From positions 1-33,000 of the forward strand of contig JAISXY010000029.1 of NCBI GenBank assembly GCA_031270285.1: 33,000 nt of DNA, in the 5' to 3' direction. Below, piece by piece: positions 10,365-32,385 of this stretch. Source of the stretch: Campylobacteraceae bacterium. Its GTDB lineage: Bacteria > Campylobacterota > Campylobacteria > Campylobacterales > Campylobacteraceae. The first letter of the stretch is position 1. Every line of letters starts with the position of its first letter. The notes beneath the pieces are model-generated. The model was not told where the DNA came from, did not search any database, and saw only the letters and a list, made by a program, of their open reading frames with translations. Made by a program: the position numbers and the translations under genes.

Positions 10365-10991
10365 ATGAATAACATAATAAATAATATTGTAAAAATGGCT
10401 TCAATAATTACCGAAACAGCTTGGAGTATACTTGAAGGATTAAAAAAAAATGATATTATATTGCTTGAAAAGGCTGTAGAACATCTATCGGCTATAGATA
10501 TAAATGCAAATAAGATAGATAATGAGATAATCTCTCTGATACCAATTCTTTGTAAAAATAAGCATGCTGCGAGAGAGCTTATATCGTATATTAGAATTAT
10601 TAATGAATTTGCGCAAACCGCAGTTACTTTAAAATATTTTTGTAAATATATGTCGCTATGCATGTATGAGCGCTCTTTTATCGCTACAAAAGAGCCTGCT
10701 TCGCAACTTCTCCAATCTTCTATAGACGCTTTTATAATGTCGGCTGAACTTATGGAAAACAGAGATAATATAGAGGATATATTTCGTAAAATTAAAATTA
10801 AACGATTGACAATGGATGATCTGTATCTCAAAATAGAGAAAACCATCATAGGACTTGATACGAAATTAACGATTAACTGTACAAAGATTTTAAATGCGGT
10901 AGAAAAGCTTGACGATATATTTAAAAGCGCTATTACCGTAACAAAGATTATATTACTTATACGAGACGGCGGAAAACTTAGAATATATTAA
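10365..10991 (+). CDS. PhoU-like (PhoU/DUF47-type) helical protein
   Basis: 208 aa, all-helical, with a PhoU-like pattern (ANKIDNEIISLIPILCKNKHAARELISYIRIINEFAQTAVTLKYF) that recurs weakly in the second half; start preceded by AAAGG. Confidence 0.6.
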   Translation: MNNIINNIVKMASIITETAWSILEGLKKNDIILLEKAVEHLSAIDINANKIDNEIISLIPILCKNKHAARELISYIRIINEFAQTAVTLKYFCKYMSLCMYERSFIATKEPASQLLQSSIDAFIMSAELMENRDNIEDIFRKIKIKRLTMDDLYLKIEKTIIGLDTKLTINCTKILNAVEKLDDIFKSAITVTKIILLIRDGGKLRIY

Positions 10992-19232: not shown

Positions 19233-20018
19233 TTACCCGAACTTGCCCGTTATATACTCTTCCGTTAATCTCTCTTTGGGGTTTATGAAAAGCTCTTCGG
19301 TCGGACTTAACTCAATCAAATCTCCAAGATACATGAACGCCGTATAGTCGCTGACGCGGGCTGCTTGCTGCATATTGTGCGTTACGATTATGATGCTAAC
19401 GCTGCTTTTAAGTTCTGTTATAAGCTGTTCAACCGCTTGCGTTGAGATAGGATCAAGCGCCGAAGTCGGTTCGTCAAACAAAAGCACTTGAGGCTCAACC
19501 GCTATAGCGCGCGCAATACAAAGTCTTTGCTGCTGACCGCCCGAGAGTGAGTTTGCATCGCTTTTCAACCTGTCTTTGACTTCATTCCAGATAACCGCTT
19601 TTTTTAAAGCTTTTTCTATTTTTTCATTTAATTCGGATTTTGATTTAATGCCTTTGAGCTTTAATCCATATGCGATATTGTCCCAAATAGACATGGGAAA
19701 GGAGGTCGGTTTTTGAAAAATCATACCGATTTTTGTACGCAAATCAATCAAATCCGTCTTTGGTTCAAGTATATTTTGTCCGTTAAAAATAATCTTGCCT
19801 TTATAAATATTGCCCGCATATAAGTCATGAATACGGTTAAAACACCGCAGCAGCGTAGTTTTTCCGCAACCGCTCGGACCTATAAGAGCAGTGATTTTGT
19901 TTTTACCGATAGGCATATTTATATCTTTTAAACTGCTTTGCGCTGTGTTTGCATAAGAAAAAGAGAGATTTGTTACCTCAAGGGCTCTATTTTCTTTAAT
20001 ATCTGCGATTGTTGCCAA
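19233..20018 (-). CDS. pstB: Phosphate ABC transporter ATP-binding protein
   Basis: 261 aa; [20 protein letters not shown] Walker [34 protein letters not shown]. Confidence 0.96.
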
Positions 20019-20019
20019 A

Positions 20020-20856
20020 TTATCTCCTCTTTTTAATGATTAATCTGCCTGTTATATTTATCCCGAGAACAAATATAGAGAGTAAAAATGCCGCCGCCCA
20101 ACCGAGATTTTGCCAATCCGTATAAGGACTTGTGGCATAGTTAAACATGGTAACTGTAAGCGACGACATAGGTGCGTTTAAGTCCGTACTGAAAAAGTTA
20201 TTATTGAAAGATGTGAACAGCAGTGGAGCAGTTTCGCCGCTGATTCTTGCGATTGAGAGAAGTGCGCCTGTTAAAATGCCTATTTTAGCGCCTCTATATA
20301 CAACGCCCGTTATAACTTTATATCTTGAAGCTCCCAAAGCAGCCGCAGCTTCTCTTTGGGTTTGAGGGACAAGCGAGAGCATATCGTCCGTTACTCTTAA
20401 AACTATCGGTATCATTATAATCACCAGTGCAACTATGCCCGCCCAGCCTGAAAAGTGTCCTGCCGGATGAACCAAAATCGCATATACAAATGCGCCTATT
20501 ACTATTGAAGGCGAACTCATCATGATATCGCTCAAATCCCTTATAAGATTTGCGAGTTTACTTTTTTGTCCGTATTCGCTTAAAAATGTACCTGCCAATA
20601 TACCTATGGGAATTCCCACAATAGAGGCAAAAAATACAAGCATTGCCTGACCTGTCAGGGCATTTTTTAAACCGCCGCCTTCAATACCCGCAGGCGCTGC
20701 ATTATGTAAAAATATATCAAGATTGAGCGCAAAAAAACCTTTATAAAGCAATACAAAAAGTATCCAAAACAGAAAAGCTATGCCAAAAACGGCGCTTAAA
20801 ATACAAAGTGTTAAAACAATACGGCTGATGATCGTTCTTTTTGTTTTGGCTGTCAT
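20020..20856 (-). CDS. pstA: Phosphate ABC transporter permease PstA
   Basis: 278 aa membrane protein; [47 protein letters not shown]. Confidence 0.94.
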
Positions 20857-21713
20857 TGAGCCGTCCTTAATTTTCTAAAAAATATAAATTTTGCTATGCC
20901 TATAACTATAAAACTAATCGCAAAGAGTATAAGAGCCAGATAAAAAAGCGATGAATAGTAAAGCGCGCTGTCGGCTTCTGTGAATTCATTTGCCAAAGTT
21001 ACGGGGATAGAGGTAGCAGCAGATGTTATCGTATCCGGTATTTTGTGAACATTTCCCATGACAAATGTTACAGCCATAGTCTCTCCTATAGCACGCCCCA
21101 AAGCCAAAATAGCAGCTCCCAAAACGCCGGCTTTTGCGTAAGGGATTATCACGCTTTTTATCACATCCCATTTTGTTGCTCCCAAAGCGTAAGCAGACTC
21201 TTTTAAAATATCCGGCGTTGTGTTCATGGCATCTCTTGCGACAGAAGCCATAAATGGCAATATCATGATAGAAAGCACTATACCCGCACTCAAAAGCCCA
21301 AGTCCGTTTCCTCCAAACAACACCCTTAAAATCGGCGCAAAATAGAAAAGTCCCCACATGCCGTAAATCACAGATGGAATCGCGGCCAGCAGTTCAATAG
21401 CGACACCAACAGGCGCTTTTAGTTTTTGGACGGCTATTTCACTTAAAAATATCGCTATTCCAAGAGCTAACGGCACAGCTAAAGCCATAGCTATGAGCGT
21501 AGAAAGAATGGAGCCTGCGATGGCAGGAAAACCTCCGAAAATCTCAAGATTGGGCGCCCATTTTGATGATATTAGAAAGTCCGTTCCAAAAGTATCTATA
21601 GCGGGTTTTGCTTCAATAAACAAAACTATAAATATCGCCAAAAGTATAACAAAAAGAGCAAAAGCCGCAAGCCTTGTAATATTTAAAAATATAAAATCGT
21701 TTATTTTATTCAC
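20853..21713 (-). CDS. pstC: Phosphate ABC transporter permease PstC (GTG start)
   Basis: 286 aa membrane protein; KESAYALGATKWDVIKSVIIPYAKAGVLGAAILALGRAIGETMAVTFVMGN; 4-nt overlap with pstA. Confidence 0.94.
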   Translation of the reverse strand: MNKINDFIFLNITRLAAFALFVILLAIFIVLFIEAKPAIDTFGTDFLISSKWAPNLEIFGGFPAIAGSILSTLIAMALAVPLALGIAIFLSEIAVQKLKAPVGVAIELLAAIPSVIYGMWGLFYFAPILRVLFGGNGLGLLSAGIVLSIMILPFMASVARDAMNTTPDILKESAYALGATKWDVIKSVIIPYAKAGVLGAAILALGRAIGETMAVTFVMGNVHKIPDTITSAATSIPVTLANEFTEADSALYYSSLFYLALILFAISFIVIGIAKFIFFRKLRTAQ

Positions 21714-21744: not shown

Positions 21745-21778
21745 ATTTTAACGCCTGCTTATTGCAAAATGGTTACAA
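21745..21778 (-). promoter_or_regulatory. Candidate Pho-box-type promoter of pstCAB
   Basis: Minus strand TTGTAAC-CATT-TTGCAAT (21778-21761), 10 nt, TAAAAT (21750-21745). Confidence 0.55.
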
Positions 21779-21985
21779 AGATTTGGAAGAATTTTGTTAT
21801 TGCAAATCGCTTTGATAGGCGATAATCCCTTTTGTTTCATCATTATAAACAAAACCTCTTATACATTCCGCCCCCTATTCTTTCATTATTCCTATGTTTT
21901 CTCATGTCATTCCCGTTTGAATAATGCGACCCAGTCTCTTTTTCTCATTCCCACCTCCTCTTATGTTATTCCCGCTCCCTTTTAT

Positions 21986-22052
21986 GTCATTCCCGCGACC
22001 TACGCCCAAGCTTACGAAGTAAGCGCATATCGTGAGGGATGGCGGAAATCCA
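21986..22052. repeat. Long REP-like element with nested hairpin (reverse orientation, diverged)
   Basis: GTCATTCCCGC ... GGCGGAAATCCA outer arms; inner stem GCTTAC-GAA-GTAAGC at 22010-22024. Confidence 0.6.
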
Positions 22053-22117
22053 TCTTCTCATGACGACTATTTGTTAAAAATCCATTTTTCCGTAAAAGCA
22101 TTTTTGTTGTTTCTTTT

Positions 22118-22145
22118 TTGGATACCCGTTTTCACGGGTATGACG
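22118..22145. repeat. Short REP-like palindrome, TTGGATACCCG-TTTTCA-CGGGTATGACG type
   Basis: Inverted arms ATACCCG/CGGGTAT with the same TTGG/GACG flanks. Confidence 0.8.
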
Positions 22146-22155
22146 AAGGGTGTAT

Positions 22156-22182
22156 GTCATTCCCGCGCAGGCGGGAATCCAA
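22156..22182. repeat. Short REP-like palindrome, reverse orientation
   Basis: GTCATTCCCGCGCAGGCGGGAATCCAA. Confidence 0.8.
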
Positions 22183-22264
22183 AACAAGCGAAGCGTTTTT
22201 GCGTAAGCAAAATGTTTCCTTGAAAACAAGCGAAGCGCTTTCGGCTTGCTGAAATGTTTCCTTG
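22181..22264. repeat. Tandem duplication of a 42-bp unit, each with a 6-bp-stem tetraloop hairpin
   Basis: 22181-22222 and 22223-22264, 33/42 identical by hand alignment; nearly all differences fall in the hairpin. Confidence 0.8.
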
Positions 22265-22344
22265 AAAGCGCATTAAATTATTTTGCATATTAAATAAAGT
22301 AGAAGCGCATAAAACTAAAAAACCTTATTTTTTATATTCTTTTT

Positions 22345-22371
22345 TTGGATACCCGACTACTCGGGTATGAC
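22345..22371. repeat. Short REP-like palindrome, TTGGATACCCG-ACTA-CTCGGGTATGAC
   Basis: Inverted arms ATACCCG/CGGGTAT. Confidence 0.75.
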
Positions 22372-22396
22372 AAAAGGGACGGATATGACGAAAGGG

Positions 22397-22419
22397 GGCG
22401 GTAAACAAATCTTACCGCC
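22397..22419 (-). terminator. Hairpin downstream of pstS
   Basis: GGCGGTAA-ACAAATC-TTACCGCC, 8-bp perfect stem; no clear T-tract on the minus strand. Confidence 0.35.
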
Positions 22420-22460
22420 GCCAGCGCCGCCAAAATTGACAAACCTCATTCAATTTTGTA

Positions 22461-23489: not shown

Positions 23490-23523
23490 AGTATATGGAG
23501 CTTTTGTTGCAGAAAGGTTACAA
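23490..23523 (-). promoter_or_regulatory. Candidate Pho-box-type promoter of pstS
   Basis: Minus strand TTGTAAC-CTTT-CTGCAAC (23523-23506), 10 nt, TATACT (23495-23490). Confidence 0.6.
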
Positions 23524-23745: not shown

Positions 23746-24435
23746 TTATGCGCAAATCATCGGCGAATATATAACGGTCTCTTTCGGCTTAAAATAGACT
23801 ACGCAATTCATGCCCTGCGCTAACTGCTCTATCATGTGCTCTTTTTTCGCATCTCTATCGCTACCCTCTATACTGAGCAAAAATATAGGATATCTTTTAT
23901 CGTTGAACTTTATATATTCGCCTGTCTTGACAGCAAGCTTTATCGTAATAGAAGCGCTATGTTGATGGCTGTCAAGCAGTTTACTCACAAGCTGTGTAAA
24001 TTTTTCTATCTGCAGTTTAAGTTCCGGAAACGTAGGATCAAAGTCTTTTTTAAAGGCTATTTTACGGCTTATGGAAACTGCGCTGATACACAAATCTAAA
24101 AGTGAATAAATATTGACAAATTCACCGCTTTCATCAAATGAGACAAATCTTTTGACATGCTTTTTGTAAAGTTTGATACCTATATTATCATCGTCTAAAT
24201 ATCCGACTGTTATGCCATAAAATGAATTTTCACCAAGCCGAAAGTCAAAGAGCGTCGTTTTAAATCCGAAAGTCATGCTTGCGTAAGCGCTTGCCATGTC
24301 AAAAAGTTCTCTTGCTCCGACCTGCGGAAGCAGATACTGCGCCTCTTGATTTATCATCACTATTTTGCCGTTTAAATCAAAAAGAATAAACGGGTTATAG
24401 TCATTATCTATCCATTGTTCGTAAAATTGCACCAA
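23746..24435 (-). CDS. PAS-domain protein with an uncharacterised C-terminal domain
   Basis: 229 aa; N-terminal PAS-like segment (DNDYNPFILFDLNGKIVMINQEAQYLLP); no H-box, G-box or output domain recognised. Confidence 0.6.
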   Translation of the reverse strand: MVQFYEQWIDNDYNPFILFDLNGKIVMINQEAQYLLPQVGARELFDMASAYASMTFGFKTTLFDFRLGENSFYGITVGYLDDDNIGIKLYKKHVKRFVSFDESGEFVNIYSLLDLCISAVSISRKIAFKKDFDPTFPELKLQIEKFTQLVSKLLDSHQHSASITIKLAVKTGEYIKFNDKRYPIFLLSIEGSDRDAKKEHMIEQLAQGMNCVVYFKPKETVIYSPMICA

Positions 24436-29707: not shown

Positions 29708-29911
29708 CTAAAATCTAAAACGATTAAACGTCCGCATATTCCAAACGCTTAAAGGCGAAACGGAAATCTAAAGAAATTACAAAAACTATTTCTAAAACAG
29801 TAAAAGTTCTTAAATACTTTTTGTTTTTCCATATTATTTCAAAAAAGTAACATGGAAAAACTATTTTTTTCGCTAAAATATATCATATTTTTTGAGGTAT
29901 TAACGGATATA

Positions 29912-31744
29912 ATGAAGTTTTGTATAAAAATTTTTATTTTATTGTTAATGATAACCTGCGCTTTTGCAGAAGATAAACAGGTTCTTGTTATCAACTCTTA
30001 CCATCGCGGCTTTCAGTGGAGCGATGACGTGATAAAGGGCTTGGAGACAGTTTTATCACAGCATATAGATATAACGGTCAATGTTTTATATATGGATTCA
30101 AAACGAATCAACTCAAAGGAATATTACAAAAAGCTGCTGGAGCTTTACAAACTTCAACTGAAAAATCACAAATACGAATTGATTATAACCGTTGATAAAT
30201 TTGCTTATGATTTTGTACTGCAATACTATCATGAGCTTTTTACTAATGAGCCGATACTCTTTTCGGGACTTGAGCGAAATTCTATAGAAGATATAAGAAA
30301 AAGCGGTCTTGAAGATAGGGTTTTTGGAGTATATGAAAAAAGAGCTATCGGTGAAACTATCCTTATGATTTCAAAACTGATTCCGAACTTAAAAAAACTC
30401 TATATTATCAACGACCAAAGCGAAAACGGAGACGATTCGCACCCTTTTATCATGCAGGCGATAGAAGAGAATGACGAAAAGCTGGATATAGAGTACATAA
30501 GAGCGTCCACTTTGAATGAACTTGAAGAGAGATTTTCTTCATACAAAAACGATGAAGCGATTTTTTATGTGAGATTTTACAATGACAAATATGGTAATTT
30601 TTACAGAAACAACCAGATAGCCACGACTTTAGAAAAACTAAAACTGCCCGTTTTTGTTACGGACACTCTTTTTATAGGCAAAGGCGCTTTTGGCGGCAAA
30701 CTTGTATTGATTGACGGGCTTGGACAGGAGACGGGAAAAGTTGCGGTTGATATTTTAGAGGGCAGATTAACACCACTTTTTACTACAACATTTGATAAGT
30801 ATGATTTTCAATTTGACCTCAATAAAATGAGAGAGTTCAACATAAATCCAAGTCTTGCCGTTGGAAATTATACTACTATAAATATGCCGATGACATTTTT
30901 TGATAAACACAGAGAGTTTATAAATTTTGTCTTTATCATTTCGCCGCTGTTGGTTTTTCTTATTTTGGGACTTTTGCACAATATCTACATGAGAATTAAA
31001 AATGAGAAAAAACTGCGCCTTGTAGAGCTTGAGAAAAACAAACACCAGCAGTTTGTTATCCAGCAGTCAAAACTTGCCGAGATAGGCGAAGTGTTTTCGT
31101 CCATTGCTCATCAGTGGAAAAATCCTTTGGTAGAGATAGCGACCATAGCACAAGAGCATGCATTTAAAGAGCGCGATAAAAACAGTCAGTTTGTAAAAGA
31201 TATCATGGTGCAGATACACTACATGACAAATACTATAAGCGATTTTCAAAAATTTATAGCTCCATCTGCCGTTAAAACCTCATTTAATGTCGAAGAGGCT
31301 ATAAAATCCATGATGAAGATCATAAATCATACGATAAAATATAACTATATAGATATCGTTATAAACAAAAAAGACGCCGCAAAACTTACTGTTGAGGGCT
31401 ACAAAAACGAGTTCATGCAGATACTTTTAAATATCGTAAATAACGCAAAAGACCAGATAGCGGAGCTTAGAGCCAAAGGAACGATAAAAAGAGGCAGGAT
31501 AGAATTTCTCATATATAACAGGAAAAATCTGGTCATTATAGAGATAGGCGATAATGCGGGCGGTATAAGAAGCGACAGACTTCCATTTATATTTGACGCT
31601 TACTATACGACAAAGAAAAACGGGCACGGCATAGGTCTTTACATGTCAAAACTCATCATTGAAAATAAAATGGGCGGAAAGATAGAAGCTTTTAATAAAG
31701 ATGACGGAGCTTGTTTTAAAATATCACTGGAGGCGGTAAAATGA
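29912..31744 (+). CDS. Sensor histidine kinase with a periplasmic ABC-substrate-binding-like sensor domain
   Basis: Start placed at the internal ATG giving signal peptide MKFCIKIFILLLMITCAFAED (the ORF opens at 29852); VLVINSYHRGFQWSDDVIKGLE, TM segment, H-box SIAHQWKNPL, N-box NNAKDQI, G-boxes GDNAGGI and GHGIGLYMSKLI. Confidence 0.88.
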   Translation: MKFCIKIFILLLMITCAFAEDKQVLVINSYHRGFQWSDDVIKGLETVLSQHIDITVNVLYMDSKRINSKEYYKKLLELYKLQLKNHKYELIITVDKFAYDFVLQYYHELFTNEPILFSGLERNSIEDIRKSGLEDRVFGVYEKRAIGETILMISKLIPNLKKLYIINDQSENGDDSHPFIMQAIEENDEKLDIEYIRASTLNELEERFSSYKNDEAIFYVRFYNDKYGNFYRNNQIATTLEKLKLPVFVTDTLFIGKGAFGGKLVLIDGLGQETGKVAVDILEGRLTPLFTTTFDKYDFQFDLNKMREFNINPSLAVGNYTTINMPMTFFDKHREFINFVFIISPLLVFLILGLLHNIYMRIKNEKKLRLVELEKNKHQQFVIQQSKLAEIGEVFSSIAHQWKNPLVEIATIAQEHAFKERDKNSQFVKDIMVQIHYMTNTISDFQKFIAPSAVKTSFNVEEAIKSMMKIINHTIKYNYIDIVINKKDAAKLTVEGYKNEFMQILLNIVNNAKDQIAELRAKGTIKRGRIEFLIYNRKNLVIIEIGDNAGGIRSDRLPFIFDAYYTTKKNGHGIGLYMSKLIIENKMGGKIEAFNKDDGACFKISLEAVK

Positions 31745-32385
31745 AAATTCTGGTTTTGGAAGATAATGAGAGACTGGCAAATCTGATAAAGGTTACTTTG
31801 GATCAGGAAGGTTTTAAAACGGATGTTTTTTACGACGGCGAAAAGGCGCTGGATGCGATAAACAACGGTTATCACTGCTATGTTTTGGATATAAACGTTC
31901 CCTCGCTGGACGGCATAAGCATACTTGATACGATAAGACTTTATCATAAAAACATACCGGTCATAATCATCAGCTCAAATCATGAATTGGAAAATATCCA
32001 AAAAGCTTATGAAATAGGGGCTGATGACTATCTTAAGAAGCCGTTTTTCAATTATGAACTTGTTCAAAAAATCAAAAAATTCTGCCGACCTTCTGCGGTT
32101 TCGGTTATAAATTTGACGGGCGGATATCTATTTAACTACGAAACCAGCAGACTTCATGACAAAGACGGCAACGAAGTGCAGCTTGCAAAAAAGGAGATAC
32201 TTTTTTTCGAACTCTTTATAAAAAACCGTCAGCGTATAGTTACATTTGAAGAGATGGAAGAGTATATATGGGAGGGCGAGGATACTTCTATCTTAAACAT
32301 TAGAGCGCTCATCAAGCGGCTACGCAAAAAACTTCCCGAAAATGCCATAAAAATAGTCAAAGAGATAGGTTACGCACTGAATTAA
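31741..32385 (+). CDS. OmpR/PhoB-family response regulator
   Basis: 214 aa; receiver domain (LVLEDNERLA, VLDINVPSLDG, IISS, KKPF) and C-terminal winged helix; 4-nt overlap with the kinase. Confidence 0.9.
   Translation: MKILVLEDNERLANLIKVTLDQEGFKTDVFYDGEKALDAINNGYHCYVLDINVPSLDGISILDTIRLYHKNIPVIIISSNHELENIQKAYEIGADDYLKKPFFNYELVQKIKKFCRPSAVSVINLTGGYLFNYETSRLHDKDGNEVQLAKKEILFFELFIKNRQRIVTFEEMEEYIWEGEDTSILNIRALIKRLRKKLPENAIKIVKEIGYALN

Follow-up and report, generated by a model that had tools for sequence, protein, structure and literature searches.

Putative Pho boxes at the pstS and pstC promoters and a candidate PhoB-type regulator in a genus of Campylobacteraceae

Results

The pst locus and its two promoter elements

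We have analysed a window of 33,000 nucleotides (the whole stretch of DNA under study) that carries pstS, pstC, pstA and pstB on the minus strand (Table 1). The assembly searched comprises 1.50 Mb in 106 contigs and is 91% complete, so that some further targets may be absent from the counts given below. The closest PstS records come from MAGs named 'Campylobacteraceae bacterium' (L003-L005, 72-89% identity), and the genus is represented in this analysis solely by MAG-like assemblies. The analysis computed the sequence, spacing, direct-repeat symmetry and position of the boxes, how specific they are within the genome and how well conserved, and the presence of phoU, phoB and phoR orthologs.

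Table 1. Genes and predicted promoter elements of the pst locus, in window coordinates
Feature	Position	Strand	Evidence
pstS, phosphate-binding protein, 332 aa	22461..23459	-	NCBIfam TIGR00975, 350.9 bits (cut-off 205)
pstC, permease, GTG start	20853..21713	-	NCBIfam TIGR02138, 279.4 bits (cut-off 196)
pstA, permease	20020..20856	-	NCBIfam TIGR00974, 262 bits (cut-off 193)
pstB, ATPase	19233..20018	-	NCBIfam TIGR00972, 379.8 bits (cut-off 343)
Putative Pho box of pstS, TTGTAAC-CTTT-CTGCAAC, direct repeat, period 11	23506..23523	-	Sequence read; whole-genome pattern search; orthologous promoters
Predicted -10 of pstS promoter, TATACT, 10 nt past the box	23490..23495	-	Sequence read; spacing in orthologous sites
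Putative Pho box of pstC(AB), TTGTAAC-CATT-TTGCAAT	21761..21778	-	Sequence read; whole-genome pattern search; orthologous promoters
Predicted -10 of pstC promoter, TAAAAT	21745..21750	-	Sequence read

On the minus strand the pstS element reads TTGTAAC-CTTT-CTGCAAC-AAAAGCTCCA-TATACT from 23523 down to 23490, and the pstC element TTGTAAC-CATT-TTGCAAT-AAGCAGGCGT-TAAAAT from 21778 down to 21745, both with the same layout of a 6-mer, a 5-nt spacer, a second 6-mer, 10 nt and TANNNT. A preliminary description of this DNA had reported this pair (21745-21778 and 23490-23523), and direct reading of the sequence confirmed both the elements and the identity of their plus-strand cores at 15 of 17 positions. 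The closeness to the start codons was also right; counted from the final base of the second half-site, the distance is 46 nt for pstS and 47 nt for pstC, and the earlier figure of 48-49 comes from a core beginning one base later. The -10 of pstS agrees with gnTAnaAT, the motif of C. jejuni -10 elements (PMC3847290).

The intergenic gap between pstS and pstC spans ∼750 bp and holds many short repeats (window 21830-22460); the same gap measures ∼120-150 bp in L004 and L003, in which the pstC box is retained. It also holds a single copy of a perfect dRS3-type palindrome, ATTCCCN8GGGAAT (window 22159-22178), of which we counted 68 copies across assembly G000 and none for the reversed-pattern control. 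Many of these copies read ATTCCCGCCTACGCGGGAAT, a form consistent with the dRS3 subtype that the filamentous prophage Nf1 targets in Neisseria (PMC3898611), and the presence of such repeats within a Campylobacteraceae genome was unexpected. Upstream of pstS, where relatives have a divergent phoU, lies a minus-strand gene for a 229-aa protein (window 23746-24435) with no match in Pfam or NCBIfam.

Genome-wide specificity

The 18-bp pattern YTGYAAY-N4-YTGYAAY matched the whole genome at the pstS and pstC sites only, with no match for the reversed-pattern control. When the -10 was added and the half-sites were slightly relaxed (TGTWAY-N4-YNGYAAY-N10-TANNNT, the strict pattern), three matches were found in 1.5 Mb, located before pstS, pstC and a phoU-phoB-phoR operon on another contig, again with none for the control. 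The whole-genome scan proposed as a check in the preliminary description has therefore returned non-random matches, all of them at pst/pho promoters (3/3), although these search patterns were partly tuned on the same promoters and the out-of-sample part is formed by the other congeners. A scan allowing one mismatch gave 8 matches (5 of them new) versus 6 for the control, with no general enrichment for further targets.

Conservation among congeners

Across 14 congeneric genomes the strict pattern had 32 matches versus one for the reversed pattern. Twenty-six of them are at pstS, pstC or phoU promoters, so that the element sits at pst and phoB-type operons and is rare elsewhere, both in the genome (3/3) and in the genus (26/32). 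Twenty-five were placed by ORF, on the correct strand and 41-49 nt from the start (some pstC distances being measured to a GTG start), and one (G002, at a contig end) by its resemblance to the pstC box. The other six fall within ORFs (four), 139 nt before a peptidase-like gene and before a lipoprotein gene. The congener G006 (74% complete), which lacks both pstS and a close PhoB ortholog, yielded no match to the strict pattern.

With relaxed matching, 14/14 genomes (G023, of the nearest genus, and 13 congeners) showed a box upstream of pstS, at a distance of 45-49 nt. A pstC box was recovered at 8/8 loci that extend as far as this gene, and a phoU box at 9/9 divergent loci; G008 has an additional strict match before a pstC ORF beyond those eight. 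A relaxed box at 40-60 nt, present in all 14 orthologous pstS promoters, occurred in 0.024% of dinucleotide shuffles, while the strict pattern detected 7 of the 14, missing half of them, and appeared in 0/21,000 shuffles. The conservation at orthologous pstS and pstC promoters that the preliminary description looked for is thus there. It also bears on whether the two elements are a chance likeness of AT-rich promoters or the product of a recent duplication of one of them, as the 15/17 identity of the cores might suggest: the boxes have lasted, with drifted sequence, at all these promoters of both genes and also in other families, the flanking bases differ and shuffles rarely produce them, all of which renders this explanation extremely improbable.

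Repeat geometry and half-sites

Half-sites were compared over 38 sites from the genus and the nearest genus. Direct identity averaged 3.8/6, versus 1.3/6 for the inverted and 1.6 ± 0.2 for the shuffled comparison, with a clear repeat peak at lag 11; a palindromic reading of the site was rejected on the low inverted match. The two direct half-sites of 11-bp period that define a Pho box are therefore present, and a dimer of the PhoB/OmpR type would be expected to use such a repeat. Within the box, T3, T10 (in the spacer) and A15 are invariant or nearly so although the relaxed pattern does not force them, whereas TANNNT at the N10 spacing, seen in all 38 boxes, is part of the search pattern. The same spacing, with the same reservation, puts a -10 about 10 nt downstream of the box at both promoters of the window and also upstream of phoU.

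The half-site YTGYAAY of the preliminary description holds as an approximate form distinct from that of E. coli, but it is better described as TGTWAY in the first repeat and YGYAAY in the second, with a 5-nt T-rich spacer between them. When compared to the E. coli half-sites (CTGTCAT), 8-9 of 14 positions are equal. This mismatch does not exclude the elements from the Pho boxes, because the consensus differs between species (PMC4415409), and the extent of the match therefore points to a drifted Pho box and not to a new class. As for the earlier suggestion that the box replaces the -35, the absence of a -35 is no argument for it: C. jejuni sigma70 promoters, which show periodic T positions, have none anyway (PMC3847290).

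A porin and other candidate targets

Of the additional sites from the one-mismatch scan that were examined further, one is backed by conservation. It reads TGTTAT-TATTT-TGTAAG-N10-TATAAT and lies 48 nt before a Campylo_MOMP porin gene (PF05538; L214, G000:C87:60648-60680). The box is kept in 6/6 orthologs, 48-52 nt from the start, and is absent from eight paralogous porins (0/8); its variation falls mostly at tolerated half-site positions, and in four of the six the final base is G instead of Y. These promoter sequences make the MOMP-type porin a likely further Pho target, for which E. coli PhoE offers a parallel as a Pho-controlled porin.

A strict box was also located 44 nt before a gene for a secreted lipoprotein with a Y_phosphatase3 domain (tyrosine phosphatase family; L144, 1438, minus strand, G011:C162:1467-1499), a possible species-specific Pho target.

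The porin sites are relevant to another reading, in which the elements would belong to ordinary sigma70 promoters of constitutive type instead of being activator sites. The invariant spacer T at box position 10 would suit such promoters, given the periodic T positions and missing -35 of C. jejuni (PMC3847290). However, that signal includes neither the G at positions 2 and 13 nor a direct repeat of exactly 11 bp, a generic motif would recur at many promoters instead of at three in 1.5 Mb, and one porin keeps the motif in six orthologs while eight paralogous porin promoters are devoid of it, so we regard this reading as highly improbable.

The candidate regulator

The preliminary description considered the regulator not identifiable, and in fact neither phoB nor phoR was found within the window. 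Nevertheless, we were able to identify it on another contig (C77), where one of the 10 Trans_reg_C (OmpR-type) proteins of the assembly is encoded between phoU, which comes first, and the gene of a PhoR-like kinase (L084); in the close relatives L004 and L005 this phoU-regulator-kinase operon is divergent from pstS. The operon has its own box, TTGTAAT-ACTT-TGGTAAT-N10-TAATAT, 47 nt before phoU, which is the third and last strict match of the genome and whose position indicates a probable autoregulation of phoU-phoB-phoR.

The C77 regulator has a receiver domain (PF00072) and a Trans_reg_C domain (PF00486), both above cut-off, and the two NCBIfam models that it matches best are both for PhoB (NF053854, 151.9 bits; TIGR02154, 148.7 bits), with scores below their equivalog cut-offs of 270 and 296. 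Similarly, PhoU is above the Pfam cut-off (PF01895) and below the NCBIfam equivalog one (58 versus 130 bits), and the best match of the kinase is TIGR02966 phoR, with 145 bits against an equivalog cut-off of 334. An operon shared with phoU and the gene of a PhoR-type kinase, and linked to pst in L004 and L005, is what is looked for in a PhoB, and the regulator has it. Its identity is 77-91% within the genus (full-length proteins) and 64% in G023; orthologs in other genera are 40-64% identical (40-52% in the sister genera), and the next paralogs about 24-32%. A different PhoU-like protein, distinct from the phoU product of C77, is encoded in the window (10365-10991, plus strand; Pfam 22.4 versus a cut-off of 23.5 bits).

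Beside aspartase/dcuA-like genes, the plus strand of the window (29852-32385) encodes a histidine kinase whose sensor domain is ABC_sub_bind, and an OmpR-type regulator. This regulator (31741-32385), or another of the 10 Trans_reg_C proteins, could bind the boxes, since the family generally binds direct repeats of like period, and the signal need not then be phosphate. We find this very unlikely: the third box precedes the phoU-phoB-phoR operon itself, boxes track this operon and pst through the genus, the C77-type regulator adjoins pstS in relatives, and the window regulator, near its aspartase/dcuA-like genes, has no strict box close by.

DNA-contact residues

We placed the C77 regulator on E. 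coli PhoB (1GXP chain) over equal-length stretches of 84 aa, an ungapped register being assumed. Under this assumption the residues Thr194, Val197 and Arg201, which contact bases in E. coli PhoB (PMC3264566, PMC3973317), are all retained, which would be fitting with the retained TGT/G core of the box. By contrast, the recognition-helix residues Arg200 and Arg203 are replaced by Ser and by Leu/Cys/Val/Ser, respectively, and the wing residue Arg219, which lies in the minor groove and is a PhoB feature, by Trp. All 12 full-length proteins from the genus and the nearest genus (G023) have this Trp, as do those of G105 and G145, of another family, and Arg219 is kept in the remaining aligned orthologs.

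A simple coupling between the Arg219 to Trp change and the half-site change is not supported: Trp219 alone fails to explain the half-site drift because the two Trp219 genomes of another family have TGTTAC/TGTAAT boxes. That this change, together with those at 200 and 203, co-evolved with the half-site shift (second half YGCAAY), orthogonal to the TGTTTC genera, is in our opinion doubtful.

Discussion

All these data suggest that both elements are Pho boxes, each of which would be bound by a dimer of the C77 PhoB-type regulator, a reading to which we assign a probability of about 0.92. The Pho-box-like, paired and well-placed promoters of the preliminary description are in this way supported by conserved, non-random sites. 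The system would be a Pho regulon of the canonical, autoregulated type, in which the half-site is particular to the lineage and has diverged in sequence from the E. coli one.

PhoB binding, activation, the phosphate response and the start sites are predicted here from sequence comparison. With plentiful phosphate PhoU would restrain PhoR, while under scarce phosphate the flux through PstSCAB would drop and PhoR would phosphorylate PhoB. PhoB-P would then bind the 11-bp direct repeat head-to-tail, 10 nt upstream of the TANNNT -10, and recruit sigma70 RNA polymerase to pstS and, separately, to pstCAB, to its own phoU-phoB-phoR operon (autoregulation) and probably also to the gene of the MOMP-type outer-membrane porin.

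This arrangement resembles the E. coli PhoB system in its direct half-sites of 11-bp period ∼10 nt upstream of the -10, in the presence of boxes at pst and a phoBR-type operon, and in the retained Thr194, Val197 and Arg201; it differs in the half-site (TGTCAY in E. coli, TGTWAY/YGYAAY here), in the separate box before pstC, and in Ser at position 200, Leu/Cys at 203 and Trp instead of Arg at wing position 219. Winged-helix domains of the OmpR/PhoB family bind direct repeats of 6-7 bp head-to-tail (PMC3264566, PMC3973317, PMC4832192), and the C77 regulator would do so on tandem repeats like KdpE, PmrA and M. tuberculosis PhoP, although these have other half-site sequences and respond to other signals.

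Closer to this genus, a PhosS/PhosR phosphate regulon of Campylobacter jejuni was reportedly described by Wosten and colleagues in 2006. C. jejuni belongs to the same family and its pst genes are also driven by an OmpR-type regulator (PMC9449129, PMC3197622), whereas here the regulator lies within a phoU-phoB-phoR operon. The C77 regulator has clear single best matches in the sister genera (none labelled as PhosR), and it may be orthologous to PhosR (Cj0890c). The sister genera are presumably Campylobacter proper, and their box presumably the published PhosR box.

Other genera of the family have pstS promoters with the same layout (6-mer, N5, 6-mer, N10, TANNNT), which in the sister genera is identical, but with TGTTTC-like half-sites replaced here by TGTWAY/YGYAAY; the L179 promoter, for instance, reads TGTTTC-CATTT-TGTTTC-N10-TAAAAT. 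Deeper relatives have TGTWAC-type boxes, such as AGTAAC-CTTTT-TGTTAC-N10-TACAAT in L007 and, before phoU, TGTAAC-CTTTC-TGTTAC-N10-TACTCT in L008, and further families likewise share the layout.

The Pho-box layout is thus conserved while the half-site bases drift among genera (TGTTTC, TGTWAY, YGYAAY). This work supplies an operator motif and a matching candidate regulator for this genus of Campylobacteraceae, by means of which Pho regulons would become annotatable in such MAG-like genomes, and it predicts that the gene of one outer-membrane porin belongs to the phosphate-starvation genes.
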